DNA from: Planctomycetaceae bacterium
Lineage (GTDB): Bacteria > Planctomycetota > Phycisphaerae > SM23-33
DNA: 38,317 nt
Reading direction: 5' to 3'
Assembly (NCBI GenBank): GCA_039680605.1
Contig: JBDKTA010000053.1
Location: 1 to 38,317, forward strand
In this document: positions 4,332 through 38,317 of the stretch, piece after piece
Layout of the letters: each line of letters opens with the position of its first letter
Numbering within the stretch: the stretch's first letter is position 1
Translations under genes and position numbers: made by a program
Notes under the pieces: generated by a model
Databases searched by the model: none
Seen by the model: only the letters and a program-made list of their open reading frames with translations
What the model was told of the DNA's origin: nothing

Positions 4332-4372
4332 TGGCATGCAGAAGGTCAAGGGTTCGAGTCCCTTCAGCTCCA
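4332..4372 (+). tRNA. 3' half of tRNA-Ala(GGC), non-functional fragment
   Basis: From U33 onward it reads anticodon GGC, A37, stem GCAGA, variable loop AGGTC, T-stem AAGGG/CCCTT with loop TTCGAGT, acceptor strand CAGCTCC and discriminator A. U70 fits alanine identity. The bases before 4332 do not form the 5' half, so this is a fragment such as an integration leaves at attR. A matching tRNA end opens the window. Confidence 0.75.
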
Positions 4373-4483
4373 GTCTTCGTTCGCCGCCGGCGGCGAACGA
4401 AGACTGCCACGGCGCAGCGGAGCTTTTCCCGCGAAGCCGGGCCCCATCTATCGTGACAGCGGCGAAGTACGCCTTGGCAAGCC
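4359..4483 (+). repeat. Direct repeat copy 2 (tRNA end plus flank)
   Basis: It pairs with 1-127 and includes the same 32-base palindrome at 4373-4404. Its right end encodes the last dozen residues of the 4981-4448 gene, so that C-terminus may have been replaced when the repeat formed. Confidence 0.85.
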
Positions 4484-8592: not shown

Positions 8593-10335
8593 TCAGTCCA
8601 TCTTTTCCTGCTTGATGGCGTAGACGATGAAGCATTTGCCTTCGGCGGGCAGGGGGGTGATCTTCCGCGGCAGGCGGGTGTATCCCATCGTCGGGTTGAA
8701 CGTGCCGCTGGAGCGCCTGGCCCGCTCCAGGACCGGGGCGATGGCCGAGGCGGGCAGCAGGGTCGACGGTCCGCCGTCAGTCAAAGCCGCGTTGAGGCGG
8801 CCCAGCATGAAGCCTTCCAGCGTATCGCCGCCGGCGATGATCGGGGCGGCGGCCTCGCCGGCGGCCAGGGCGAACGTGGTTTCCTTGGCGTCGCCCGACT
8901 CGACGCGCGGGGCGATGGTCCGCGGGGCGGCGCCCATCGCCGGCCAGTATCCCAGCCCGTACGCCACGGTGCTGCGGTCCTGGGCGGGCGGGGCCTTGGT
9001 CGCGGCCGGCGCCGGCGGGCGAGCGCCGGGAGCGGCGGGGCGGGGCGGCGCCGGCGGCCCGGGCACCGTCAGGGGCGTGAACTGCGCATCCTCGACGTGG
9101 AGCATGGCCACGCCCAAGGGCTTCTCGCGCGAGGAATAGCTCACGCGCAGCAGCGACGCGGGCAGCAGACGCCCGTCGGCCAGGCGCACGACGATCTCGG
9201 CGGCGCCGGTGGTGAGCGTCTCGTCGACCATCAGCGTGTGCTGGCCGATCGGCACGCCCAGGGCCTGCACGATCGCCAGGCGGTCGCACGTGGGGATCGG
9301 CAGCGCCTTGTCGCGGTCCTGCCAGGGGCGGGCGTCGGGCATGAGCCACTCGATGGTCGTCGTGGCGGTCGACGATGACCCGAAGGCTTTCTCGTACGCG
9401 TTGACCGACACGGACGCCTGGACGTAGATCGGGTTCTGCACGTCGGCGCCGGAGGTAGCCTTCATGGCGTCGCGAACCAGGTTCAGGGCCGTCTGCGAGT
9501 TGGGTCTCAGTTGCAGCACGATCTGCGCCTGGGCCAGGGCGTCGAGGGGGCGGTTGAGCTTGAGCAGCGCCAGGGCGTGGCCCTGGTGATAGGCGGCCAC
9601 CTGCGGCGCGTCATCGACAAGCGTTCGGAAGATGCTTTCGGCCGCGGCGGGATTGTCGCCGTGGTATTCGGCTATCGCCAGCAGGAAGCGGCGGATCTGC
9701 CCGTCGCCCCAGGTTTGGGCGAGGTCTTTCAGGGCCTTGGCGTAGCGTGTTTGAAGGCTCTTCTGGTTGGACGGGTCGCGGGCGGCCCTGCCCCGCATCC
9801 GCGTGGCGCGGCGGGCGAGGTCCTGGGAGTTTTTGTATTCCTTGTTGAAGGCCTCGCGATGCGTGGCGAAATAGGAAGGCGTGACCCACTTGCCGTCGAC
9901 TTTGCGATGGCGGTCGTGTACGGCGAGGCGCCACTGGCGCAGTTGCTCGGTCAGCGCGTCCGGCGGCGCGGCGCCGGCGGCTGCCACGCGGCGCATCAGC
10001 GTGAAGACGATCGGTTCGGGATTTCCCGTGGCGGCGATGTCGATGCCGCCCTCGTCGTCGCTGCCGGGCGCGGCGCCGCCGGCGGGGAATCCCGACGCCG
10101 GCGCCGTCGCGGGCGGGGCGTCTTGCTTGCCGTCGGCGGGCGCTTCGTCCTGGCGAATGTGGAGCACTTGCGAGGCCTTGACCGTGATCACGCCCATGCC
10201 GATGTCGATCTTGATCTCATCGCCTGTTCGCGTGATTTTGCCGTCGAAGGTGCGCCCGTCGCGTAGAAAGATAGTGTCGGCGGCCGCTGGCAGGGCCAGC
10301 ACCGCCGCCACGCCCAGCAGGAGCAGTGTTTTCAT
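8593..10335 (-). CDS. Secreted TPR-like protein, planctomycete type
   Basis: 580 aa. The start at 10335 is chosen because it opens a clean signal peptide ([19 protein letters not shown]) and has GAGG seven bases upstream. The mature N-terminus [17 protein letters not shown] and [12 protein letters not shown] is a small beta domain common in planctomycete secreted proteins. Residues about 130-290 are helical with TPR-like periodicity ([40 protein letters not shown]). A Pro/Ala-rich linker ([21 protein letters not shown]) precedes the C-terminal region. Probably periplasmic or envelope; the specific role is unknown. Confidence 0.8.
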
Positions 10336-10460
10336 GGAACGACCTCGCGTGAGCATTTGTTCAGTTTAACGAACGAACAGGGCCGCGTGTTGTATGAATT
10401 CCTTTTACCTTGCGCGGCCGATACAATGAAGGTGCTATCGATCACTCTTAAGGATGTCTG

Positions 10461-12344
10461 ATGAGACCGCTGACCGTACTGCTGTGCATCGCTCTGGCCG
10501 CGCCGATTGCGGCGGGGCAGGGTTTCTTCGGTGCTGGGGCCTCGAACATCACCGCCGCGGCTGTCCCCAGCCACACGCGCGTGGCGCCGGGGCAGAAGCT
10601 CCACCTTGCCGTCGTGCTTGCCATCGAGCCGAACTGGGTCTTCTACGGGCCTGACCCGGGCGATGTTGCGCAGGCGGGCGAGATCATTGTCGAGTCGGAT
10701 CACTTGAAGGCCCAGCCGGTCCTGTGGCCGCCGACGCATCGCAAGGTAACCAAGGCCGGCGCCGAGACGTTAGTCAACAACGTCTACGCGGGGCGGACGG
10801 TAGTCTATGTTCCGCTGGAAGTCCCCGGCGATGCCAAGGCAGGCCCGCGCGCGATCCGCGCGAAGGTCGAGGGGCAGATCTGCCACAAGGATGGAACGTG
10901 CGTTCCGCTGCAGAATCTCGCGGCGGAAACTTCCGTCACGGTCGCGGGCGAAGCCCTGGTGAATCCCGCGTGGGCGGCGGATGAGACTCTGGCGGGCGGT
11001 CTGAAAGACGCCAAGCCGCACGAGGCGGCGCCCAAAACCGCCGCGGCGACAACGTCTGCCAGGGAGCCCGCCGCGGCGACTCAAATGCCCGACATTGCGC
11101 CGATGGAGTTCGTCGTCTACGGACAGCAGCAGGATTTCAGCCTGTGGGCGGGGCTGGCGCTGGCGGTGCTGGCGGGGCTGATTCTCAACATCATGCCCTG
11201 CGTTTTGCCGGTCATCCCGTTGAAGGTGATGAGCATCGTGCAGCAGGCGGGGCAGTCGCGACGGCGGTTTGTCACCATGGGCCTGGCCTTTGCCGGCGGC
11301 GTCCTGCTGTTTTTTGTCGCCCTGGCGATCCTCAATCTCGTTCTCAAGCAGGTGCAGGGGGCCGGTTTCGAGTGGGCGGCCCAGTGGCAGAACGACGGTA
11401 TCCGGATCGCCATGGCCATGCTGATGGTGCTGGTGGCGGCCAATCTTTTCGGGCTCTTCAATGTCACGGTTTCCGGCAAGGTCGCCGCCCTGGAAGGCAG
11501 CGGCGGCGGGCATTGGGGCGCTGCCGCGACGGGCCTGCTCACCGGCGTCCTGGCCACGCCGTGCAGTTTCGGCATCCTGACGGCCGCCCTGGCGTGGGCT
11601 CAGTCGCTGTCGGTGTTGGTCGGTTCATTCGCGCTGTTGCTGATCGGCGTGGGAATGGCTCTGCCGTACGCGGTGCTGACGGCGTTTCCCTCGCTGGTGG
11701 CCCGCCTGCCTCGCCCGGGGCGGTGGATGGAGCTGTTCAAGCAGTCGATGGGGTTCGTGATGCTGCTGGTGGCGGTGTGGCTGTTAGCCGGCGGTGGCGG
11801 CAACGCGTACGCCTTCTGGGCGGTAGGGTTTGGCGTGGTGCTGGCGTTCTGCCTGTGGATGTGGGGCTCGTGGGTCAGCTACGACGCGCCGCTGGGTCGC
11901 AAGCTCAGGATTCGCGGCGCCGCGGTGGTGCTGGCCGGCGCAGCGGGCTTATGGATGCTCTGGCCGCCGACGCCGGCGGGAGAGGGCAGCGGCGTTCATC
12001 TCCAGCCCTTCGACTGGACTCGCATCACCGCCCAGCGCGAGCAGGGCAAGACGGTGATCGTCGATCTGACCGCATCCTGGTGCGTGACGTGCAAGACCGT
12101 CGAAGCCGTGATCTATGACAACGCCGAGGTCGCCCAGGAACTCAAGAAGCGGGATGTGACCGCGTATTACGGCGACGTCACCAACGCCCGGCTGCCCGCC
12201 AATGCCCTCAAGAAGGCATTGAAGAACGAAGCCGTGCCCAGCACGGTCGTCCTGGGCGCGCCGGGCAAACCCGCCGTGCTGCTGCGCGGCATCTTCACAC
12301 GGGAAGAATTGCTCGAGGCGATCGACATGGCGCGGAACCAGTAG
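10461..12344 (+). CDS. dsbD: Thiol:disulfide interchange protein DsbD family
   Basis: 627 aa. AAGGA six bases upstream sets the ATG at 10461. It would carry electrons from cytoplasmic thioredoxin across the inner membrane to periplasmic disulfides. The order is: signal peptide (1-20); periplasmic DsbD-alpha-like domain (about 30-165) with a Cys in GQICHKDGTCVPL; Ala-rich linker; eight-helix membrane core with the paired cysteines in NIMPCVLPVIPLK and ATPCSFGILT; and a C-terminal thioredoxin-like domain with WCVTC (Cys541/Cys544). All redox cysteine positions are kept. It is transcribed alone, divergent from the 10335-8593 gene. Confidence 0.93.
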   Translation: MRPLTVLLCIALAAPIAAGQGFFGAGASNITAAAVPSHTRVAPGQKLHLAVVLAIEPNWVFYGPDPGDVAQAGEIIVESDHLKAQPVLWPPTHRKVTKAGAETLVNNVYAGRTVVYVPLEVPGDAKAGPRAIRAKVEGQICHKDGTCVPLQNLAAETSVTVAGEALVNPAWAADETLAGGLKDAKPHEAAPKTAAATTSAREPAAATQMPDIAPMEFVVYGQQQDFSLWAGLALAVLAGLILNIMPCVLPVIPLKVMSIVQQAGQSRRRFVTMGLAFAGGVLLFFVALAILNLVLKQVQGAGFEWAAQWQNDGIRIAMAMLMVLVAANLFGLFNVTVSGKVAALEGSGGGHWGAAATGLLTGVLATPCSFGILTAALAWAQSLSVLVGSFALLLIGVGMALPYAVLTAFPSLVARLPRPGRWMELFKQSMGFVMLLVAVWLLAGGGGNAYAFWAVGFGVVLAFCLWMWGSWVSYDAPLGRKLRIRGAAVVLAGAAGLWMLWPPTPAGEGSGVHLQPFDWTRITAQREQGKTVIVDLTASWCVTCKTVEAVIYDNAEVAQELKKRDVTAYYGDVTNARLPANALKKALKNEAVPSTVVLGAPGKPAVLLRGIFTREELLEAIDMARNQ

Positions 12345-29040: not shown

Positions 29041-29085
29041 CCGCGCCTGTAGCTCAATGGATAGAGCATCGGTCTTCGGAACCGA
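29041..29085 (+). other. attL of element 1 (orphan 5' half of tRNA-Arg)
   Basis: 45 bases identical to 35791-35835. They contain the tRNA-Arg acceptor 5' strand, D-arm and anticodon arm, ending exactly at the last base of the anticodon stem. The 3' half is absent. This was probably the original chromosomal 5' half. A TTGACT-N17-GAAAAT promoter-like sequence at 28958-28986 could be its old promoter. Confidence 0.9.
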
Positions 29086-29296
29086 CGCCGCAAATCTGCA
29101 AGAGGCTGAAAAGACAGAGACTTACGGCGACAGTCCTGATTCACTCTGCCATTCGCTTTGCCATTTGGATGCAGAATTGACCCCCGATCTGGCCGAAATC
29201 GTGGCCGCCTGGGCGACGCTGCCCGAGCCGATCAAGGCCGGTATCGTGGCGATGGTCAAGACAGCCTGCCCCACCGGCGGAAAGAGGGGCGAATGA
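29084..29296 (+). pseudogene. Detached C-terminal tail of the element 1 integrase
   Basis: It is in frame with the integrase gene across the 45 bp att repeat. The excised circle would continue after codon 557 into this 70-codon tail, ending TPDLAEIVAAWATLPEPIK, then AGIVAMVKTACPTGG and a stop at 29296. The DLA.(I/V)V.AWPTLPE.IKAGI.AMV pattern is, to my recollection, common at the C-termini of planctomycete integrases. In the integrated state it is separated from the rest of the gene by the element. A stray in-frame ATG at 28913 could start it, but without a visible Shine-Dalgarno. Confidence 0.8.
29141..29163 (+). promoter_or_regulatory. Left arm-type repeat pair (candidate integrase site)
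   Basis: Two TYTGCCA boxes 12 bp apart. The 23-base block matches 35647-35669 at 21 positions and in the same orientation. It lies 56 bp inside the left att repeat. Confidence 0.6.
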
Positions 29297-29575
29297 TGCT
29301 GCAAGGCAGCGCCAAAGCCCCGGCGGCCCCAGTGGCGAAGCCCTTAACGGGTTTGCAGGCTGATAGCCAAGCCGCGGCGGGTGCGGCAAGGGTACGGGGG
29401 TGGGGTTGCCCCCAGCCGGGGGCGCTTGCTTGTGTGCATTACACCCCCTCCCACATTCTTTCGATGCGCGGCTTTTCCCAACTGTGCGGGGGCGAAGCGC
29501 CCCGATTACGCTCAACAGCGCAACGCTGCGCCAATCCCCCCCTCCGGCATGGAGGGTAATGATGGGAGCCCATAC

Positions 29576-29860
29576 ATGGAACAGGATGAAATTATCGACC
29601 GCTGCCAAGCCGTGACGGTTCAAGAGGCCGCGGACCTGATGCGCGTTTCGCGGCCGACGGTGACGAAGCTTATCAAAGGCCGCGCTCTGCCAAGCGTCCA
29701 GATCGGTCGCTGCCGACGGATCATGCGAGTGGACCTGGAGGAATTTCTTCGACGCAAAGCAACCCTCGGCTGGCGGTCATACCTTCCTGATGAACTGACG
29801 CCGGCGGATGTTGGACCGCACCCAGGCCATGCGGGCGAAGACGAGATCGTGCATTTCTAA
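29576..29860 (+). CDS. Excisionase-type helix-turn-helix protein
   Basis: 94 aa, start 29576 with GGAG seven bases upstream. The N-terminal half has the winged-HTH layout of the excisionase/AlpA superfamily: VTVQEAADLMRVSRPTVTKL, IKGRALPSVQIG, RRIMRVDLEEFLRRK. It is the first gene after the left att site and a candidate recombination directionality factor or regulator of the element. The ~280 bases before it hold no credible gene. Confidence 0.82.
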   Translation: MEQDEIIDRCQAVTVQEAADLMRVSRPTVTKLIKGRALPSVQIGRCRRIMRVDLEEFLRRKATLGWRSYLPDELTPADVGPHPGHAGEDEIVHF

Positions 29861-29975
29861 TCCTGAAAATCGCTTGGTTTGAGACGTGACAGGGAGAAGC
29901 CCGACGAAGATAATGCCAGCAAGGCCCATGCACGGGGCATGGGCAAAGCAGTTCTTTGCTGAAAGGGAAACAGCG

Positions 29976-30914
29976 ATGAGATCAAAACGGAACTGGGCAA
30001 TGGCGGCTGGCGTTCTTGCAGCGTCATTTGCGGGCGGGGCATTCTCGCACTGGATACTATTGCCGGATGAAGCCTCTGCACAAGGCTATCGCTATGTCGG
30101 CATAACCGGTGGGCATGTGACCCCAGCGGAATACCGAGACATGATTCGGTACAAAATCGCTGCATTTCGAAATGCAAATGCGACGAGCATCAGAATTGCC
30201 AAAGAGAACGGCAACAAAGAGGAACTTGCCACTCTTGAGCGAGACGCCCAGCAGATTCCAGAGAAGGCTGCGGAAGTGGTCCAACGGAACTTTCTCATTT
30301 TCCTGTCACCCGAGCAGTACGCAGCGATCAAAGGAAAGACTTTCAACACTTTTGGGGATGTCGTGAAGCTCTTGGCCGCTGCTGGTCTGCCTACCGATAC
30401 GTTCCCCAAGGACATCGATGAGGCCAGAGTTGCGACGCAGGAACAATATCTCGCTGGTGTGAAGCACCGAGAGGAACAACATCAGGCTACCATGGCCCGC
30501 GCGCAGGAGGCAAAGGAGTACCTTGAGAAGAACGGGCCTGGCGTGGCACAACCCGCAGGCAGGTTGGAACAGCGGAATGCGGAACAAACAATCAAGGTGA
30601 AGGAATTAGTTGCTGAACAAATAACTCTTGCTGATGCCGCAGGCAACGTCCGAGGGCAGTTGTCTATCGACAAGAAAGGTGACGGAATGCTGGTTCTGGC
30701 CGGCAAGAAAGACATCTACTTGATGTCTATGGTCGATCAGGACGGACATCCCGCTATGTACCTTAGCAACCCATCTGGACAGGGCGCAGTAGTGATGTGC
30801 GCCCAGCCGGCAATCGGCCAAATCGTGCTACAATCCGCCAAGGGCGCAATCGTTTTCGAAGCACTCCGCGGTCAGAACGGAAGCTATTTCCGCGAGACGA
30901 AACCCAAGCAGTAA
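29976..30914 (+). CDS. Membrane-anchored extracytoplasmic protein (element cargo)
   Basis: 312 aa. ATG 29976 is preceded by AAAGGG, and a longer frame upstream is disfavoured. A single N-terminal anchor or signal (WAMAAGVLAASFAGGAFSHW) is followed by a charged, mostly helical region (about 60-190: EEQHQATMARAQEAKEYLEK). The C-terminal half is beta-rich with repeated small turns (GNVRGQLSIDKKGDGMLVLA, DQDGHPAMYLSNPSGQGAVV). I do not recognise the family. Base composition is lower in GC than that of its neighbours, which fits horizontally acquired cargo. Confidence 0.75.
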   Translation: MRSKRNWAMAAGVLAASFAGGAFSHWILLPDEASAQGYRYVGITGGHVTPAEYRDMIRYKIAAFRNANATSIRIAKENGNKEELATLERDAQQIPEKAAEVVQRNFLIFLSPEQYAAIKGKTFNTFGDVVKLLAAAGLPTDTFPKDIDEARVATQEQYLAGVKHREEQHQATMARAQEAKEYLEKNGPGVAQPAGRLEQRNAEQTIKVKELVAEQITLADAAGNVRGQLSIDKKGDGMLVLAGKKDIYLMSMVDQDGHPAMYLSNPSGQGAVVMCAQPAIGQIVLQSAKGAIVFEALRGQNGSYFRETKPKQ

Positions 30915-30990
30915 CGAACCATCGACGACAAAGGCGGCATAGTTTGGGAAACCCCTGGCAACACGAAGAAACAATAGCTTGAATGGACCC

Positions 30991-31044
30991 TTCGGCGGGC
31001 TAGGCTTCGCGAGCCGAAAGCGGTACTCCGAACCGCTGCCCGCC
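30991..31044 (+). ncRNA. Potential three-way-junction RNA in a 5' leader
   Basis: GGCGGGC (30994-31000) pairs with GCCCGCC (31038-31044). Inside it are GGCT/AGCC with a 5-base loop and GCGGT/ACCGC with a 7-base loop ACTCCGA. An alternative pairing TTCGGC (30991-30996) with GCCGAA (31013-31018) would break the outer stem. It ends 37 bases before the 31082 start codon, so it could be a regulatory leader. It also recalls a tRNA lacking its T-arm. It could simply be a terminator of the upstream gene. Confidence 0.4.
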
Positions 31045-31081
31045 GGGATCCTTTTCGGAGCCGGAATCGGAGCCGGACAAG

Positions 31082-32098
31082 ATGGACAAGTCAGACGAAG
31101 ATAATCTTCCGCAGGGATGGCAGGGACTGCTCGACTATGCGCATGACCCCGAGGGATGGGTGACACTGGACACGGGCGGAGTATTGTCCAAATTGTACAA
31201 GGAATCGAACGGGCACGATGTTGCGGTTCTACTGGACTCGCTGGTCAATGAAGCGCGAATCGCATGGCACAAGACGACTGTCTTGCGTAGGGATGACAAC
31301 CCCGACCCCCGCGATGAGGAGACGGGCCTTGACTTCCAGTTGTCGATGCAGAGGCTATGGGTTCAAGTATTCACGGCAGTACGGGAAGCGGAACAATGGC
31401 TGTATCGAGCACTTGGCCCAGGGAATGATAATGAACTGCTCGATTGTGTAGGGGACGCCCTCCGAAACATTGCCCTCTGTCTCGATACGATGACTTCCCC
31501 TGACGACGATGTACCCGCGAAGGAAAGGTTATTTCCTGACACGCTGAAGGCTTTGCACGGGGCCGCCCGTGACTTTGAACGACTCTATGCCCGCGAGACT
31601 CAATCGGCCGGTGCTGGCAAAGTCCCGCTCTTGCCGCCGCCGCTGCCCAAACCAACAACGGCGATTCCCGATCCCTCGCCGATTCAAGACCTTCACGCAT
31701 ACCATGAAGCTGAGCGAGCGCGACGGGAACAAGCGGAACACATTGCCTGGTGGACCAATTTCTACCGCAAACAGGATGACGAAGGCCGGAAGGTGGAACT
31801 GCTGAGGCTAGGCATAACCGCGTCCGCCCCGGCGTCGCCGACGCCAGAGGAGATTCACCTTGAGGAAATCGACTTGGACATTCTGAAGGCGCTTGCGAAG
31901 CGGGGCCATGCGCTGAAGTGCATTGATCTGGCAACCGATGTTAGGGCCGATGAAGACAGAGTAAGCGCCCGGTTGAAGTACCTTGACGGCAAGGGGCTTG
32001 TTTCCTGGCCCATTGTTGGCAAGGGGAAACGCACTAGAAAAGGGGCAAGTATCACCGACGCTGGACGTGCAGAATTGAACCGGCTAAACCCCGCCTAA
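31082..32098 (+). CDS. Cargo protein with C-terminal winged-helix domain
   Basis: 338 aa, start 31082 after GGAG. Residues 1-175 are an acidic helical domain of unknown family. A Pro-rich linker (VPLLPPPLPKPTTAIPDPSP) and a charged helix with WWTNFYRKQDDEGRK follow. Residues about 265-335 form a winged HTH (LDILKALAKRGHALKCIDLA, then EDRVSARLKYLDGKGLVSW). It could be a regulator or a defence-type protein carried by the element. The function is not assigned. Confidence 0.75.
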   Translation: MDKSDEDNLPQGWQGLLDYAHDPEGWVTLDTGGVLSKLYKESNGHDVAVLLDSLVNEARIAWHKTTVLRRDDNPDPRDEETGLDFQLSMQRLWVQVFTAVREAEQWLYRALGPGNDNELLDCVGDALRNIALCLDTMTSPDDDVPAKERLFPDTLKALHGAARDFERLYARETQSAGAGKVPLLPPPLPKPTTAIPDPSPIQDLHAYHEAERARREQAEHIAWWTNFYRKQDDEGRKVELLRLGITASAPASPTPEEIHLEEIDLDILKALAKRGHALKCIDLATDVRADEDRVSARLKYLDGKGLVSWPIVGKGKRTRKGASITDAGRAELNRLNPA

Positions 32099-32120
32099 TC
32101 CCCGCCCTATACCCGCCCTA
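32087..32120 (+). repeat. Three tandem CCCCGCCCTA-type units
   Basis: 11-12 bp units span the end of the 31082 gene and the leader of the 32150 gene. A CTCGC/GCGAG inverted repeat (32133-32148) follows just before the next start. This is a candidate operator for the downstream replication and excision operon. Confidence 0.6.
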
Positions 32121-32149
32121 GCTTCTTCTATGCTCGCGACAATGCGAGT

Positions 32150-32488
32150 ATGGAAAATGAAAGAAGACTTCTACCAGCGGGGCCGACGGCGCGGCGACTT
32201 CACGTCACCATGCGCTGGCTGAAGGCTGAAGCACAAGCCGGACGCCTTCCGCACGTCAAGGCCGAAACCCGATTCCTCTTTGACCCCGAAGCCGTAACCG
32301 CCGTTTTGATGCGCTTGGCACAAGACCCGCCGCAATGGCGCGCCGACACCGCCGCCGATCTGGTGGCCGGGATGGTCAAGGCCCGACGCGCTGGCGATGC
32401 CGCCGCCGTCGCCCAGGCCCAGGGCGAGCTTGAACGGCTGGGCGTCAAGATTAGCTTCGCCGATGGACTGGAGGCCCGCCATGAGTGA
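32150..32488 (+). CDS. Excisionase-like DNA-binding protein
   Basis: 112 aa. The N-terminal ~50 residues resemble a winged-HTH Xis-type domain (LLPAGPTARRLHVTMRWLKA, then GRLPHVKAETRFLFDPEAV). A helical, Ala-rich region follows (VKARRAGDAAAVAQAQGELE). It has no clear Shine-Dalgarno, and the start lies one base after an inverted repeat. Its stop overlaps the next gene by 8 bases, so it belongs to the same operon as the AlpA-like and Prim-Pol genes. Confidence 0.75.
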   Translation: MENERRLLPAGPTARRLHVTMRWLKAEAQAGRLPHVKAETRFLFDPEAVTAVLMRLAQDPPQWRADTAADLVAGMVKARRAGDAAAVAQAQGELERLGVKISFADGLEARHE

Positions 32489-32702
32489 CGCGGCCCCTTT
32501 GCTGGTCAACGCGAGGCGCGCGGCGGAACTTTGCGGCGTGTCGAAAAGCTGCTGGTGGGCGCAGCTCGCGGCCGGGCGCGTACCACTGCCGCTCAGGCTG
32601 GGGCGGCGAACCTTATGGCGCAGCGCCGATCTGGCGGACTGGGTGGCCGACGGCTGCCCGCCGCGCGACCAGTGGCAACAGACGCGAGGGGGCCGACGAT
32701 GA
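32481..32702 (+). CDS. AlpA-type helix-turn-helix regulator
   Basis: 73 aa, nearly all one winged-HTH domain: NARRAAELCGVSKSCWWAQL, then LPLRLGRRTLWRSADLADWV. This is the common pattern of AlpA and excisionase proteins of integrative elements. It overlaps the preceding gene and ends in ATGA overlap with the Prim-Pol gene, so all three should be co-translated. Confidence 0.85.
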   Translation: MSDAAPLLVNARRAAELCGVSKSCWWAQLAAGRVPLPLRLGRRTLWRSADLADWVADGCPPRDQWQQTRGGRR

Positions 32703-33871
32703 AACCGCCAAGCCCACACAGCGCCGCCCTTGCCGCCGCCCTGGACGCGATCGCGCGCGGATGGTCGATCATCCCGGCGGACCCGGTGACGAAGAAGCCG
32801 CTGACGAATCCGCACACAGGCCGCCCGATGGGATGGGCGAAGTATCGGACCGCGCCGGCCGGTGAAGCCCAAGCCCGTCAATGGTTCGACCCGGACAGCC
32901 CGCCCCTTGTCGCCGTGATCCTGGGCGAAGCGTCCGGCGGACTGGTCTGTCGCGACTTCGACGGGGCCGCCGGGCGCAGCGCCTATGCGGCATGGGCGAA
33001 AGAGAATCCCGGCCTTGCCAAGAGCCTGCCGACGGCGAAGACGCCGGACGGGCTGCACGTCTACTTCCGTTCGACCTGGCAAGGATTCATCGACTGCGGC
33101 GACGGCGAACTGCGCGGCGATTCTGGGCACTACTGTTGCCTGCCCCCTGGCCCCGGACGTGATTGGATTATTCCCCTTCCCAAAGGCGACTTGCCACTTG
33201 TCGACAACCCCGTCGCGGTTTTTCACGCGACGCCGCGAGAATCTCTTGTAAACGCCTGTGACCGCTTGTGTCCGCCTGTGTCCGCTTGTAACCCTCTTGT
33301 ATGCTCTTGTGTGACAGTCGCGGAAGATGAGGACCGGATTCAGCGGGCAATCGAGGCGACGCTGCCGAGCGGTACGCGTCAGAGGCACAAGGCAATCTTC
33401 CACTTCGCCCGCCGCCTGAAGGGCATGGACGACGTGAAGAACGCCGCGCCGGCCGATCTGAAACACTTGGTCCGCGCATGGTGGAAGCGGGCGCTGCCGT
33501 TCATCCAGACAAAGGACTGGACGGAGACATGGGTGGACTTTGTCGAGGCATGGGACCGTGTACAGCACCCCGCCGACGACAGGCAGTTGAAAGACTGCCT
33601 TGCACGAGCGAAGGCCCGCCCTGTGGCTGGAATCGAGAATCCCATTATGGCGACCGTGGCCGCCCTATGCAGAGAACTCCAGATTGTTCATGGCAGCGAT
33701 CCGTTCTTTTTGAGCGGGTATAAACTGGCCGGACTGCTTGAAATCGAACACCGCAAGGCGGCGCGATGGCTGAGGCACCTGGAGCGCGGCGAGAGAATCA
33801 TCCGCCGCGTGAAGGTCTATTCCCTTGAGGAACGCAAGGCCGCAGAGTATTTGTACATCGGCCCGGAATAA
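32699..33871 (+). CDS. Bifunctional primase-polymerase (Prim-Pol, AEP superfamily)
   Basis: 390 aa. The start at 32699 overlaps the AlpA-like stop. The N-terminal AEP domain has a WAKYRT entry, the metal-binding pair in GLVCRDFDGAAG and the second motif in DSGHYCCLPPGPGR, as in replication proteins of satellites and integrative elements. A Cys-rich stretch at residues 183-205 is encoded by 10 bp DNA repeats. The C-terminal part (about 220-390) is helical and ends in a winged-helix-like region (LAGLLEIEHRKAARWLRHLE). No helicase domain is present, so a host helicase would be needed. Likely role: replication of the excised circle. Confidence 0.85.
   Translation: MKPPSPHSAALAAALDAIARGWSIIPADPVTKKPLTNPHTGRPMGWAKYRTAPAGEAQARQWFDPDSPPLVAVILGEASGGLVCRDFDGAAGRSAYAAWAKENPGLAKSLPTAKTPDGLHVYFRSTWQGFIDCGDGELRGDSGHYCCLPPGPGRDWIIPLPKGDLPLVDNPVAVFHATPRESLVNACDRLCPPVSACNPLVCSCVTVAEDEDRIQRAIEATLPSGTRQRHKAIFHFARRLKGMDDVKNAAPADLKHLVRAWWKRALPFIQTKDWTETWVDFVEAWDRVQHPADDRQLKDCLARAKARPVAGIENPIMATVAALCRELQIVHGSDPFFLSGYKLAGLLEIEHRKAARWLRHLERGERIIRRVKVYSLEERKAAEYLYIGPE
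33245..33315 (+). repeat. Seven tandem 10-bp repeats (iteron-like) inside the Prim-Pol gene
   Basis: Units such as CTTGTGTCCG, CCTGTGTCCG and CTTGTAAACG repeat at 10 bp steps, with one step of 11. Ten is not a multiple of three, so the repetition is at DNA level and not a protein repeat. One-turn phasing is what a multimeric DNA-binding protein would need. Confidence 0.85.
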
Positions 33872-33885
33872 TTCCGGGAATGTAC

Positions 33886-33915
33886 TTGACCGGTTACCAA
33901 GCATCCGCGTAGAAT
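33886..33915 (+). promoter_or_regulatory. Promoter of the Cro/CI-like gene, likely leaderless
   Basis: TTGACC, 18 bases, then TAGAAT. The ATG of the regulator begins seven bases after the -10 box, so transcription would start at or next to the start codon. No Shine-Dalgarno is present. Confidence 0.65.
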
Positions 33916-33922
33916 ACCGACG

Positions 33923-34159
33923 ATGGGTAGAAAACGAATCAAGTTGAGCGACCAAATCAGGCGGGCGGTGAACCAGTCCGCCCTGTCGCGATATGCGATG
34001 TGCAAGGCCGCGAAGATCGATCAAGCGACCTTTTCCCGATTCATGCACGGGGTAGTGGGGCTGTCGATGGCGACGCTGGACGATCTGGCCGACGTTCTGG
34101 GCCTGGACCTTGCCCCGCTGCCCGACAAGCCCAAGGCCAGCAAAACGAAGGGAAGGTGA
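33923..34159 (+). CDS. Cro/CI-type helix-turn-helix regulator
   Basis: 78 aa. It is an HTH domain of the XRE class: SRYAMCKAAKIDQATFSRFM, then GLSMATLDDLADVLGLDL, with a short basic tail (KPKASKTKGR). It lies three bases upstream of the integrase gene and has its own strong promoter, apparently leaderless. It is a plausible repressor controlling integrase expression and the upstream operon. Confidence 0.85.
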   Translation: MGRKRIKLSDQIRRAVNQSALSRYAMCKAAKIDQATFSRFMHGVVGLSMATLDDLADVLGLDLAPLPDKPKASKTKGR

Positions 34160-34162
34160 ACC

Positions 34163-35842
34163 GTGAGACTCTACCGCCCGACCTACAAGACGCCCCAGGG
34201 CAAGCGACTGTCGCCGACGTGGTGGATGGACTTCGCCGATTCCAACGGCCGCCGGTGGCGCTTCCCCGCTTTGACGGACAAGCGCCAGACCGAAGCGATG
34301 GGGCGCAACGTCGAAAAGCTGCTGGCGCTGAAACAGAGCGGCGACCCGCTGCCGCCCGATCTGTTGCGATGGGTTGAAGCGGTATCGCCGGACTTCCGCG
34401 GCCGCCTGGCCGAAGCGGGCTTGATCGACGCGGACCGCGCCGGCGGCGCTGCCGCCTTGATGGTGCTGGACGATCAAGACGCCGTGATCGGCGGACACCT
34501 GGCGGACTTCCTGGCCGACGCCGAAGCGCGGGGCGTGTCTCCCGTCCAGCGCCAAATGCTCGCCCAGCGCATACGCGACATGCTGCGCAAGGCGGGGGCG
34601 CGATGGCTGCGCGACCTGTCGGCCAGCAAGATTCAGGCCGCTATCGCCGCCCTGGGCGAGCCGACAGACGACAGGCCCAAGGGACTGAGCAATCAGTCGA
34701 TGAAGCACTACGTCCGCGCCCTCAAACAGTTCTCGCGATGGCTGCAACGCGAACGGCGGACGGCCGAAGATACCTTGATCGGCGTCAAGGGCTACAACGC
34801 CGAAACCGACAAGCGCCACGAGCGCCGCGGATTCACCGCCGCCGAAATGTCGGTACTGCTGGGCGCGACCGCCAAAGCCCCGCGGCGCTGGGGCATGGAT
34901 GGCAAGGCCCGCGCCGCCGCCTACCGCCTGGCGTTTTCATCGGGGCTTCGCCGCAATGAAATCCGCACCTTGACGGGCGACAGCTTCCGCCTGGACGACA
35001 CGCCCCCGACCGTGACGGTTGAAGCGGGATACTCCAAGCATCGACGGCGCGACGTGCAGCCGCTACCGGCGGACGTGGCGGAAGCCCTGGGCGAATATCT
35101 GGCGACGGCCGACGCCGCCCGCCCGTTTGCCCTGCCCGACAAGACGGGCAAGATGCTGCACGAAGACATGGCCGACGCCCGCGCCGCCTGGATTGCCGAT
35201 GAGCGTATCAGCGCCGATGAGCGGCAGGCGCGGGCAGAAGATGGCGACTTCCTCAAGCCCCGCGATTCGGCGCGGCTGGTGCTGGACTTCCACAGCTTCC
35301 GGCATGGATTCGTGACGGCGATCTGCCGGGCCGCCGTGTCGCCCCGCGTGATGATGGAACTGGCCCGCCACAGCGACCCGCGATTGACGATGCAGCGCTA
35401 CAGCCGCGTCGCCGTCGCCGATTCCGCCCTGGCGCTGGACGCCCTGCCCAAGCTGGACGCCGACGACGCCGACGCCCAAGCCCAACCCGCCGCGCTGAGG
35501 GCGACAGGGACCGACGATGCCCGCGCAACAGTTATCGCCCCCAAGGCCGCGCCAGACGCGCCACGCTGCCCCACAATCGCCGATCGCGCGGCCGATGATG
35601 CAACGCCCGCCGATACCGCCGCCGACGCCGCCGGACAGGGGCAAAATCACTTTGCCATTCCCTTTGCCAAATCGTGCGGGCGCAACGGTGATTCGGTGGA
35701 CTGCAATGGACGGACGGGCGAATTGCCTGCGCGACGGAATAACCTTGTTTCACGCGGGAAAGCCGATAGAATCCAAGGGAAGCAACACCCCCGCGCCTGT
35801 AGCTCAATGGATAGAGCATCGGTCTTCGGAACCGAGGGTTAG
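34163..35842 (+). CDS. Tyrosine recombinase (integrase) of element 1; gene spans its own att site
   Basis: 559 aa as integrated, start GTG 34163 after GGAAGG. It has an N-terminal arm-type region, a core-binding domain (about 105-205) and a catalytic domain with R263 (SSGLRRNE), K292 (GYSKHRRRD), H377-x-x-R380 (HSFRH), H403 (LARHSDP) and nucleophile Y413 (MQRYSRV). The long tail after 420 contains the right arm site, a promoter for the tRNA and the att repeat. It is translated through the tRNA as ACSSMDRASVFGTEG, and the stop TAG comes from the tRNA 3' half. In the excised circle the frame would instead continue for 70 codons (29084-29296), giving 627 aa. Confidence 0.93.
   Translation: MRLYRPTYKTPQGKRLSPTWWMDFADSNGRRWRFPALTDKRQTEAMGRNVEKLLALKQSGDPLPPDLLRWVEAVSPDFRGRLAEAGLIDADRAGGAAALMVLDDQDAVIGGHLADFLADAEARGVSPVQRQMLAQRIRDMLRKAGARWLRDLSASKIQAAIAALGEPTDDRPKGLSNQSMKHYVRALKQFSRWLQRERRTAEDTLIGVKGYNAETDKRHERRGFTAAEMSVLLGATAKAPRRWGMDGKARAAAYRLAFSSGLRRNEIRTLTGDSFRLDDTPPTVTVEAGYSKHRRRDVQPLPADVAEALGEYLATADAARPFALPDKTGKMLHEDMADARAAWIADERISADERQARAEDGDFLKPRDSARLVLDFHSFRHGFVTAICRAAVSPRVMMELARHSDPRLTMQRYSRVAVADSALALDALPKLDADDADAQAQPAALRATGTDDARATVIAPKAAPDAPRCPTIADRAADDATPADTAADAAGQGQNHFAIPFAKSCGRNGDSVDCNGRTGELPARRNNLVSRGKADRIQGKQHPRACSSMDRASVFGTEG
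35647..35669 (+). promoter_or_regulatory. Right arm-type repeat pair (candidate integrase site)
   Basis: Two TTTGCCA boxes 12 bp apart, 122 bp before the att repeat and inside the integrase gene. It matches the left pair at 29141-29163. The two copies are read in different codon phases, so the conservation is not at protein level. Confidence 0.6.
35745..35772 (+). promoter_or_regulatory. Promoter supplied by element 1 for tRNA-Arg
   Basis: TTGTTT, 16 bases, TAGAAT, with the tRNA beginning 20 bases after the -10 box. It lies inside the integrase coding sequence. The same TAGAAT box is used by the element's regulator gene at 33910. Confidence 0.6.
35791..35835 (+). other. attR of element 1
   Basis: Identical over 45 bases to 29041-29085. 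It is the 5' half of the intact tRNA-Arg. The copies diverge at the first base after the anticodon stem (35836 against 29086). Confidence 0.92.
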
Positions 35843-35865
35843 AGGTTCGACTCCTCTCAGGCGTA
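35793..35865 (+). tRNA. tRNA-Arg(UCG), intact
   Basis: A 73-base cloverleaf: acceptor GCGCCTG/CAGGCGT, D-stem GCTC/GAGC, anticodon stem TCGGT/ACCGA with loop CTTCGGA (anticodon TCG, reads CGA), variable loop GGGTT, T-stem AGAGG/CCTCT with TTCGACT, discriminator A. CCA is not encoded. The first acceptor pair is G1-U72 rather than G-C. Both element integrase genes terminate inside it. Confidence 0.95.
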
Positions 35866-37150
35866 CTGGCAGCGAGCCGGTGTCACAAGCACCGGCTCGC
35901 ATTGTTTCGCAAGGTCCGGCACAAGCGCCCGCCGCTGCATTACTTAGGATGCCTTGCGAATTCTTGCGACTCGATGCGATTCCCTGCGGCGTCGGATTCG
36001 GCGTCGCCGTTTTGACAGGCGCGGCGTCGGATTTGGCGTCGGATTTGGCGTCGCCCCCGGTGACCACTTCGGCGTACTCTCGCAGCGTCAGATCGTAGTG
36101 CCGCCGGCTGATCTGTACCGCATGACCGATCCACGCCGAGACCTGATATTCCGGCACACCCAGGCCAAGCCAATTCGTCTCGCACGTGGCCCGCATGTTC
36201 TGGAACGGCTTGGGGAACGGCTTGACGCCGCCACGATCCATGATGCGGTGTAACTGTGTGCGGAGGTTCGCACCGCACCCCCTGTAACGCGTGATGACGA
36301 ACTCCGCCCCTGCGTCCACCTGGGAGAACACATCGAGCAGCAGCCCGTACAACGGCGGGCAGATCGGCACGTCCCGCACGTCGCCGCTTTCCCGCTCCGT
36401 CTTGCTCGACTTCACCCGCAGATGCTTGCTCGACCAGTTCACATCGGCCCACCGCAACGCCAGGACTTCCGAGGGACACCGCAGCCCCGCGTGGTACGCA
36501 AGGCCCACGATCAGCCGCCATTGTGCATCGGGGCAGTTGTCGATCATTGCCGCCGCTTCCGCCGCCGTCACGTGATGCTGTCGCTGGCGGTTCACGTAGT
36601 CGGAACTCTTGAGGCGTTTACACGCATTCTCGCTGAGCAGCTTTGCCCGCACAGCCGCGTTGAAGAACTGCTTCGCACGGCGGCAGTGCCCCCGCACTGT
36701 AGCCTCGCTGAGCTTGCTCCGCAACTGGACAGCGTAGGAATCGGCGTCCGCTTCCGTCACGTCACCGAGCAGCTTCTCGCGGCCGAGAAATGCAATCAGG
36801 GTGCGCTCCGTCTGCCGCAGATTCGAGATCGTGTTGAACTTCGCGTCGGTGCGGCCCGCGATGTACGAGGCCACCCACGCGGCCACCGTCACGCGATCCG
36901 AAGGCCGAGCATCGACCAGGCCGAAATCCTCCAGCCGCCGCCGCACGTCGTCAGAGATCGACGACAACCATTCAGCCGTCGCAGGCGCCAGCGGCGAACC
37001 GTAGGCACGAGACGCCCGCAGGTCCTTCACAAAACGCTCGATGCCTTCAGCCTGTTTAAACGCCATCTTCCCAAGACGCCAAGTCCGCCGCCTGCCGTCC
37101 AGTCCCAAGAACTGCACCCGCACGCCGCCGCCACGCTCTTTGTTTGCCAT
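35804..37150 (-). CDS. Tyrosine recombinase (integrase) of element 2
   Basis: 448 aa. The start at 37150 is two bases after the upstream HTH stop, and a longer frame to 37318 is only shadow. The core-binding domain is about 95-180. The catalytic domain has Arg in YHAGLRCPSEVLALRW, Lys in RVKSSKTERE, then QNMRATCET where most relatives have HxLR (so the first His is replaced), H in WIGHAVQ and Tyr in RRHYDLTLRE. The tail, after a GDAKSDAKSDAAP repeat, runs through the terminator and tRNA (RGVEPLTLGSEDRCSIH) and stops in the tRNA D-arm at 35804. It overlaps the first integrase gene convergently by 39 bp. Confidence 0.92.
   Translation of the reverse strand: MANKERGGGVRVQFLGLDGRRRTWRLGKMAFKQAEGIERFVKDLRASRAYGSPLAPATAEWLSSISDDVRRRLEDFGLVDARPSDRVTVAAWVASYIAGRTDAKFNTISNLRQTERTLIAFLGREKLLGDVTEADADSYAVQLRSKLSEATVRGHCRRAKQFFNAAVRAKLLSENACKRLKSSDYVNRQRQHHVTAAEAAAMIDNCPDAQWRLIVGLAYHAGLRCPSEVLALRWADVNWSSKHLRVKSSKTERESGDVRDVPICPPLYGLLLDVFSQVDAGAEFVITRYRGCGANLRTQLHRIMDRGGVKPFPKPFQNMRATCETNWLGLGVPEYQVSAWIGHAVQISRRHYDLTLREYAEVVTGGDAKSDAKSDAAPVKTATPNPTPQGIASSRKNSQGILSNAAAGACAGPCETMRAGACDTGSLPVRLRGVEPLTLGSEDRCSIH
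35872..35900 (+). terminator. Rho-independent-like terminator after tRNA-Arg
   Basis: GCGAGCCGGTG and CACCGGCTCGC form a perfect 11 bp stem with loop TCACAAG, followed by ATTGTTT. It begins seven bases after the tRNA. On the other strand it encodes part of the second integrase's tail, so it probably belongs to element 2. Confidence 0.8.
35955..35989. repeat. Four TGCGR boxes at exact 10-bp spacing
   Basis: TGCGA at 35955, 35965 and 35975 and TGCGG at 35985, inside the integrase 2 coding region. One stretch, TTGCGACTCGATGCGA, recurs with one change at 37804. Phasing at 10 bp within a gene points to a protein-binding site. Confidence 0.75.
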
Positions 37151-37152
37151 GA

Positions 37153-37356
37153 CTATCCGCCTCGGTTCTGTTCGACAAAATCCTTCACCGCCTCGGGCGC
37201 GTACCGCACGATCCGCACCCCAGGAATACGCACGCACTGCAGCAGGCCCTTCTTCGTCAGCGTCCAGATCGTCCGCTCCGACAACCCCAACGCCACCGCA
37301 ACTTGCCTTGCGGTCCACAGCATCGACTCAAAACGCGGTTCACTGATCTTGCCCAT
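37153..37356 (-). CDS. AlpA/excisionase-type helix-turn-helix protein of element 2
   Basis: 67 aa from ATG 37356 (an ATG at 37380 is possible). The winged HTH is clear: WTARQVAVALGLSERTIWTL, then LLQCVRIPGVRIVRYAPEAV. It overlaps the end of the ribbon-helix-helix gene and is followed after two bases by the integrase, so all three form one operon. It is a likely directionality factor. Confidence 0.88.
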   Translation of the reverse strand: MGKISEPRFESMLWTARQVAVALGLSERTIWTLTKKGLLQCVRIPGVRIVRYAPEAVKDFVEQNRGG

Positions 37357-37891: not shown

Positions 37892-38317
37892 AAGCGGCGG
37901 CGGGGCGACCGCTGGCGCGGTCGCACCCGCCCCGCCCCGCCCAACGTCTCCGCGACGCACAACGACACACGCGGTGCGACGCGATCCAAGCGTCAGGGAC
38001 ACACCGGCCCGGATCGTCCTCGACAGGGACGCACATTCAGGTCCGGAGATCGGGGAGGGGGCGGCGTCCGGAGGTCCCCCCCAGAGACGCGAGGCACAAG
38101 CACCCACTGCCGCATTCGGAGCGCGGGCGGCCACGCCGAGGTCAGGGAAGGCACACACCCACAGCGGCGAAAACACGCTGAAGGCGCGGTCAGGGAACGG
38201 GGAGGCAGGGACGCTCGCCGCCCCCTGCACCCCAGGCACCCCGGCAAAGGGCGAGGACATGACAACGAGCGGTAGCCGTCGAGGGCTTAGGCTCAGGACT
38301 GCACGTCCCGATTCGCA

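Follow-up and report, generated by a model that had tools for sequence, protein, structure and literature searches.

The window analysed here is the whole of contig C53 (38,317 bp) from a draft planctomycete genome of 5.23 Mb in 72 contigs, in which a single tRNA-Arg(UCG) gene is the target of two mobile elements, referred to below as element 1 and element 2. Their parts, numbered along the window, are:

29041..29085 (+), attL of element 1, the displaced tRNA-Arg 5′ half; 45 bp, 100% repeat
29086..29296 (+), stranded 3′ end of int1 (the tail); about 70 codons ending in a stop, continuing the int1 frame across att, with a conserved motif near the end
29141..29163 (+), putative arm-type site within the tail; matches 35647-35669 at 21/23 positions
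29381..29860 (+, start provisional), ORF of element 1 with an HTH_17 domain, likely excisionase/AlpA-like; PF12728, E = 8.5e-13
32531..33871 (+, start provisional), Prim-Pol replication protein of element 1; PF09250, E = 1e-12
33923..34159 (+), Cro/C1-type HTH protein of element 1, a Cro-like repressor by domain match
34163..35842 (+), int1 as integrated, 559 aa; whole catalytic domain, with the final two codons and the stop lying beyond att but still in the tRNA; circular form predicted at 627 aa
35647..35669 (+), putative arm-type site in the int1 C-terminal linker; repeat of 29141-29163
35745..35772 (+), promoter-like TTGTTT-16-TAGAAT upstream of the tRNA, from element 1; below the promoter scanner's threshold
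35791..35835 (+), attR of element 1; exact copy of 29041-29085
35793..35866 (+), tRNA-Arg(UCG), shared target of the two elements; tRNA-Arg(TCG) by ARAGORN, Rfam tRNA at 35793-35865 with 70.7 bits
35804..37150 (−), int2 in its integrated form; likely ATG at 37150, ORF opening at 37318; PF00589
35836..35844 (+), spacer between the two att blocks; 9 bp, in which integrated int1 has its stop codon
35845..35865 (+), att of element 2, tRNA 3′ end, covering the T-arm and the 3′ end of the acceptor; its distal copy is C40:505-525, with 20/21 bases alike
35872..35900 (+), terminator hairpin from element 2; 12 pairs, with a similar one in element 2b on C7
37153..37455 (−), HTH_17 protein upstream of int2, likely an excisionase; PF12728, E = 2.8e-7
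38196..38317 (no strand), contig-end overlap with C40 and C28; 122 bp, an assembly fork, with element 2 continuing on C40

The stop codons of both integrase ORFs, int1 at 34163-35842 (+) and int2 at 35804-37318 (−), lie within the tRNA gene, and the two convergent frames overlap by 39 bp (35804-35842). This arrangement had been claimed in a first-pass annotation of the window and was confirmed by ARAGORN, Rfam, the ORFs themselves and PF00589 matches above cut-off in both integrases (44.1 bits for plus-strand int1 and 34.4 bits for minus-strand int2). ARAGORN calls no gene at 29043-29157, where Rfam gives a second tRNA match (31.1 bits); this is not a gene but the att copy that was displaced. 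Element 1 uses the 5′ half of the tRNA, as had also been proposed, through an exact 45-bp direct repeat that starts at position −2 and stops where the anticodon stem ends; searching the genome against itself returned the same pair (E = 2e-16), and the element spans 29041-35835, or 6.8 kb. Because it encodes HTH_17, Prim-Pol and Cro-like proteins, it looks by gene content like a small integrative replicating element; a second HTH_17 match within it fell below the cut-off, and a search of viral contigs for close relatives of int1 found none. Element 1 also holds an Rfam int-alpA RNA at 30993-31059 (36.6 against a gathering score of 35.8). At the left end of the contig there is an exact 87-bp direct repeat (1-87 and 4359-4445, with the next 45 bp 98% alike), which is probably the cause of the contig ending there.

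Element 2 had been thought to enter from the 3′ side of the tRNA, a claim against which the lack of a second copy of the 3′ half would have counted. Searching the genome with the tRNA 3′ end gave C40:504-525 with 2 mismatches, a reversed-pattern control gave nothing, and the other three inexact matches all lay within whole tRNA genes. The distal att asked for in the first-pass annotation is therefore present on C40, where positions 505-525 read GTTCGACTACTCTCAGGCGTA and match 35845-35865 at 20 of 21 bases. The first 122 bp of C40 (3803 bp) repeat the right-hand end of the window, and no tRNA gene lies on C40. This 122-bp stretch is also found at the start of C28 and at the end of C7 (C7, C28 and C40 being our loci L144, L137 and L044), so the C53-C40 join passes through a two-in/two-out assembly fork that is resolved by the att match only. 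C7 holds a second copy of element 2 (2b) at tRNA-Glu(CTC), and the integrase genes share 74% DNA identity where they align; the non-integrase ends of the two copies (~0.75 kb) are mostly 92-100% identical when compared in 60-base steps. Since the att on C40 matches tRNA-Arg and that on C28 matches tRNA-Glu, C53 pairs with C40 and C7 with C28. The fork itself is what speaks for a wrong join, in which case C40 would give neither the right end nor the size of element 2, but with 20/21 agreement to the tRNA-Arg 3′ end on C40, and on C28 an exact 17-bp match to the tRNA-Glu 3′ end with a terminator and its T run behind it, we regard this as quite improbable. Read across the join, element 2 is ~2.9 kb and encodes the integrase, the HTH_17 protein and one more small ORF. 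These are two unrelated tRNA-targeting elements with separate att sites in one tRNA-Arg gene, and since the att blocks lie apart, 9 bp from each other, excision of one element should be possible with the other staying in place.

The first-pass annotation further suggested that the present tRNA is a composite of the two elements and that its G1-U72 acceptor pair is a trace of this. The part concerning the flanks stood: with the att of element 1 on the 5′ half and that of element 2 on the 3′ end, the upstream flank is from element 1 and the hairpin from element 2. The promoter-like TTGTTT-16-TAGAAT resembles the sequence upstream of the host tRNA-Arg(ACG), TTGATT-16-TAGAAT, and the displaced original upstream region reads TTGACT-17-GAAAAT. 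Transcription of the tRNA would start in element-1 DNA and end at the hairpin of element 2. This one tRNA gene owes its upstream DNA to one mobile element and its terminator to another. The G1-U72 pair is real, but it is also found in the host tRNA-Arg(ACG) on C25 and in most of the relatives' listed tRNA-Arg genes (C72 occurs in L226 and L231); the displaced 5′ half of tRNA-Arg(UCG) also starts with G, the distal copy on C40 also ends CAGGCGTA, and we rejected the pair as a mark of chimerism. An M16 peptidase gene used as a guide to the empty site had no adjoining tRNA by ARAGORN at 29 relatives' loci, some of which end at contig edges, and empty tRNA-Arg(TCG) genes in relatives were read in place of a synteny-based empty site. 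Other tRNA-Arg(TCG) genes in the relatives L222 and L227 are overlapped by PF00589 ORFs of 542 and 525 aa.

A two-sided arrangement is also found in L078, an uncultured planctomycete MAG with a relative of element 1 (integrase 67% identical) that uses the same tRNA-Arg(TCG) 5′ half. There, the ORF ending inside the 3′ side of the tRNA, convergent with the element-1 relative, encodes a large serine recombinase with Resolvase, Recombinase and Zn-ribbon domains (L078:11592-13580, −), and the far att of this right-hand element lies beyond the contig. The serine recombinase on the 3′ side indicates that in L078 the convergent pair on tRNA-Arg(TCG) arose with an unrelated right-hand element. In the accessible portion of PMC4383910, tRNA genes are given as known targets of tyrosine integrases only.

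What the first-pass annotation missed is that the stop codons in the tRNA are, when the att copies are joined as in the circle, a product of integration, as both int ORFs then continue through attP. Joined in this way, int1 reads through att and goes from 559 to 627 codons, a gain of ~70, and the order along the protein becomes complete catalytic domain, linker, att-encoded peptide and 70-codon tail with the conserved motif. All catalytic motifs align upstream of att and are kept in integrated int1. A 23-bp repeat (21/23 identical) flanks att1, with one copy in the int1 linker and the other in the tail, a placement like that of arm-type sites. The int2 frame is likewise open through att2, for 570 codons, with a tail different from the common one; the 6 differences between its two copies over the last 52 codons are all synonymous (P about 9e-4), which argues that the int2 tail is coding. 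A search with the int2 tail gave matches in 61 of 294 genomes at E up to 0.1, with none below 1e-3 beyond this genome; with a best E of 1e-3 there and matches scattered over long unrelated frames, these were not accepted as homologues. A single-sequence fold of the int1 tail gave three helices at low confidence (pLDDT 61), the last two covering the motif, which is accordingly predicted to form two helices, and neither tail had a match to a named Pfam domain above cut-off. Gene callers would end such integrases in tRNA-derived peptides and miss the real C-termini.

The tail of int1 is not confined to this genome. In a first search the tail was matched in 59 of the 392 Planctomycetota genomes covered, and most of the tail ORFs found start with peptides that, on reading the translations, resemble translated tRNA arms. 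A profile was then built from 18 tails (invariant W, L and A; consensus DPDLAxxVxAWPxLPEAIRAGIVAMV) and matched 107 of the 392 genomes, against 0 of 299 Pseudomonadota, a set that has no positive control of its own, while the same profile detects the window genome and L078. Matches in phages and plasmids were weak only, with best E values of 0.4 and 0.7. Changes between the tails of L082 and L105 fall 14, 14 and 15 by codon position, and the absence of a third-position excess suggests that the tail outside the motif evolves fast.

We compared the frame with integrase homology that reads into att with the frame of the tail, for which agreement by chance is expected in one third of cases. The two were in frame across att in 23 of 23 mapped elements with an intact integrase, a count that ignores kinship (L082 with L105; L087, L088 and L101) and stands for a somewhat smaller effective number. 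These elements came from two sources. Among 42 loci, the window included, one had no tail match (L112), 24 had no att pair in the stretch and 17 had a pair, of which 11, including the window and L078, had an intact integrase reading into att; L114 was left out as a tandem whose pair is int against int, as were L089, L091, L098 and L108 with a decayed or missing integrase, and an 18-bp match in L115 was not accepted as an att. Another 12 att pairs came from additional stretches at 15 tail loci, of which 5 were new and 10 belonged to the 24, with no usable pair in L099, L198 and L204, and the count excludes these three and the 14 tail loci without a pair in the stretch. The mapped att sites are 22-195 bp long, 80-100% identical and mostly in tRNA genes, for several amino acids.

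A sample blind to the tail was drawn from 14 complete or nearly complete genomes by taking 40 middling-score matches out of 165 to PF00589, leaving out, among others, the top Xer-like matches and the already studied L082. The ORF ended within a tRNA in 3 of the 40 (L152, L157 and L160), a tRNA was near but outside the ORF in 7, and none was near in 30. For each of the three tRNA-ending integrases, a tail bearing the motif lies in frame at the distal att: in L152 the att is 71 bp long and the tail contains FALWEILPDHIRETIMTLI, and the tails of L157 and L160 were seen via L092/L200 and L086/L201, respectively. As mapped in these genomes, integrase and tail are cut apart in the same way in many elements of Planctomycetota; these sit at many different tRNAs, and their integrases belong to several subfamilies. 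Tandem elements at tRNA-Ser were observed in L114 (9694-10866 and 17899-18632), where the junction at 9694-10866 restores the uncut gene as an unbroken ORF of catalytic domain, att peptide and tail.

The closest known system is that of the Myxococcus phages Mx8 and Mx9 (Int/IntX), in which, as far as the available portions of the papers go, attP lies in int (PMC6070905) and the C-terminus is replaced while the catalytic part is left; for Mx8, the accessible text of PMC4701971 gives a swap of 112 C-terminal residues for 13 and a less active product. The planctomycete genes share the position of attP and the C-terminal replacement, with the att core in the int frame in int1 and 22 relatives, int2 open through att2, and the catalytic domain kept. 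By our own reading, Mx8 Int also has near its end a peptide like a tRNA arm read in antisense. Its C-terminus differs in giving no match to the planctomycete tail profile (0.8 bits), although homology is not needed for the mechanism, and Mx8 is a single phage lineage, whereas the conserved planctomycete tail is common to many elements across the phylum. The suicidal integrases of archaeal SSV, pTN3 and pT26-2 likewise have attP inside int and a gene split by integration; the SSV-type split, however, falls between Int(N) and the catalytic Int(C), while the planctomycete catalytic domain stays whole, and SSV-type integrases carry PF16795, where int1 and int2 give PF00589 and not PF16795 (E up to 0.01). 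Self-disrupting recombinases are called exclusively archaeal in the part of PMC8371274 available to us, a statement that the Mx8 papers already qualify.

Elements 1 and 2 share with Islander tRNA islands the identity block, displaced tRNA fragment and integrase (element 2 via the contig join), and element 1 belongs with the 5′-fragment minority, 159 of 3919 islands by the figures seen in PMC4383910. They differ from such islands in flanking a single tRNA from its two sides, with integrases that converge and overlap and an int read across attP, and the passages seen of PMC4383910 do allow for integrases that extend across attP (Mx8, SSV). Integration-dependent immunity in mycobacteriophages also places attP in a coding gene and alters the C-terminus of its product (PMC9934374, from the part at hand), but there it is the repressor gene that is cut, where the planctomycete att lies in int. 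In the literature on planctomycetes and on attP inside int, which we covered in part, no report of this arrangement in Planctomycetota was found. What the compared genomes document is that integrases of one bacterial phylum frequently exchange their C-termini upon integration and that this exchange is conserved, in a variation on the mechanism known from Mx8.

Taken together, we think it quite probable that int1 is split by integration, with a tail-dependent Int switch as in Mx8, and that two elements share one tRNA. Against this reading count the fork behind the C53-C40 join, the want of convincing int2-tail homologues in other genomes, the even codon-position counts for L082 and L105, the low-confidence fold of the tail, and the 37 of 40 tail-blind integrases whose ORF does not end in a tRNA. 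Integration severs the tail, and the int1 ORF then ends in the tRNA; full-length Int would integrate the circle. By analogy with Mx8, the swap may act as a switch in recombinase activity: the tail-less Int of the integrated element would be less active or differently biased, and this weaker or redirected enzyme would hold the element in place until excision rejoins the gene, with tandem copies also restoring full-length Int. A suicidal partition as in archaeal SSV, in which integration kills the integrase and the element is trapped until a complete int acts in trans, would agree with attP lying within int and with many mapped elements being single-copy, and the whole gene is rebuilt at the tandem junction, so that a tandem copy or a relative could be the source of complete int. 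We consider it unlikely, however, as the integrated form keeps all catalytic motifs, whereas the SSV-type split parts the N-terminal portion from the catalytic domain (PMC8371274, in the part available), and the Mx8 analogue retains partial activity.

It could also be argued that the int ORFs simply run into the tRNA by chance, with an unrelated ORF or only arm sites at the other end, as frames stay open in GC-rich DNA and there are arm-like repeats in the tail; this is contradicted by the 23/23 frame agreement and by the conservation of the protein motif across diverse genomes and tRNAs, and we give it hardly any credence. Somewhat less implausible, but still very improbable, is the idea that, while the element is integrated, transcription from the chromosome yields the tail as a small protein of its own, which acts on Int in trans. 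The stranded frame is indeed open upstream, through att into chromosomal DNA, but no conserved start codon was noticed in an unsystematic look over the tail ORFs listed.

Beyond the tail-dependent switch in int1, it is possible, though we hold it only tentatively and at somewhat less than an even chance, that a class of integrases found across the phylum carries a conserved C-terminal hairpin module that senses integration state, being present in the circle only, favouring integration and blocking excision, with its loss flipping or locking the reaction. If so, the att site would be a one-bit memory written into the enzyme, and the module would be common to several integrase subfamilies and many tRNA genes. 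As the swap is frequent in the phylum and the exchangeable tail is conserved, the role of integration-state-dependent integrase forms may be testable by comparison among Planctomycetota.
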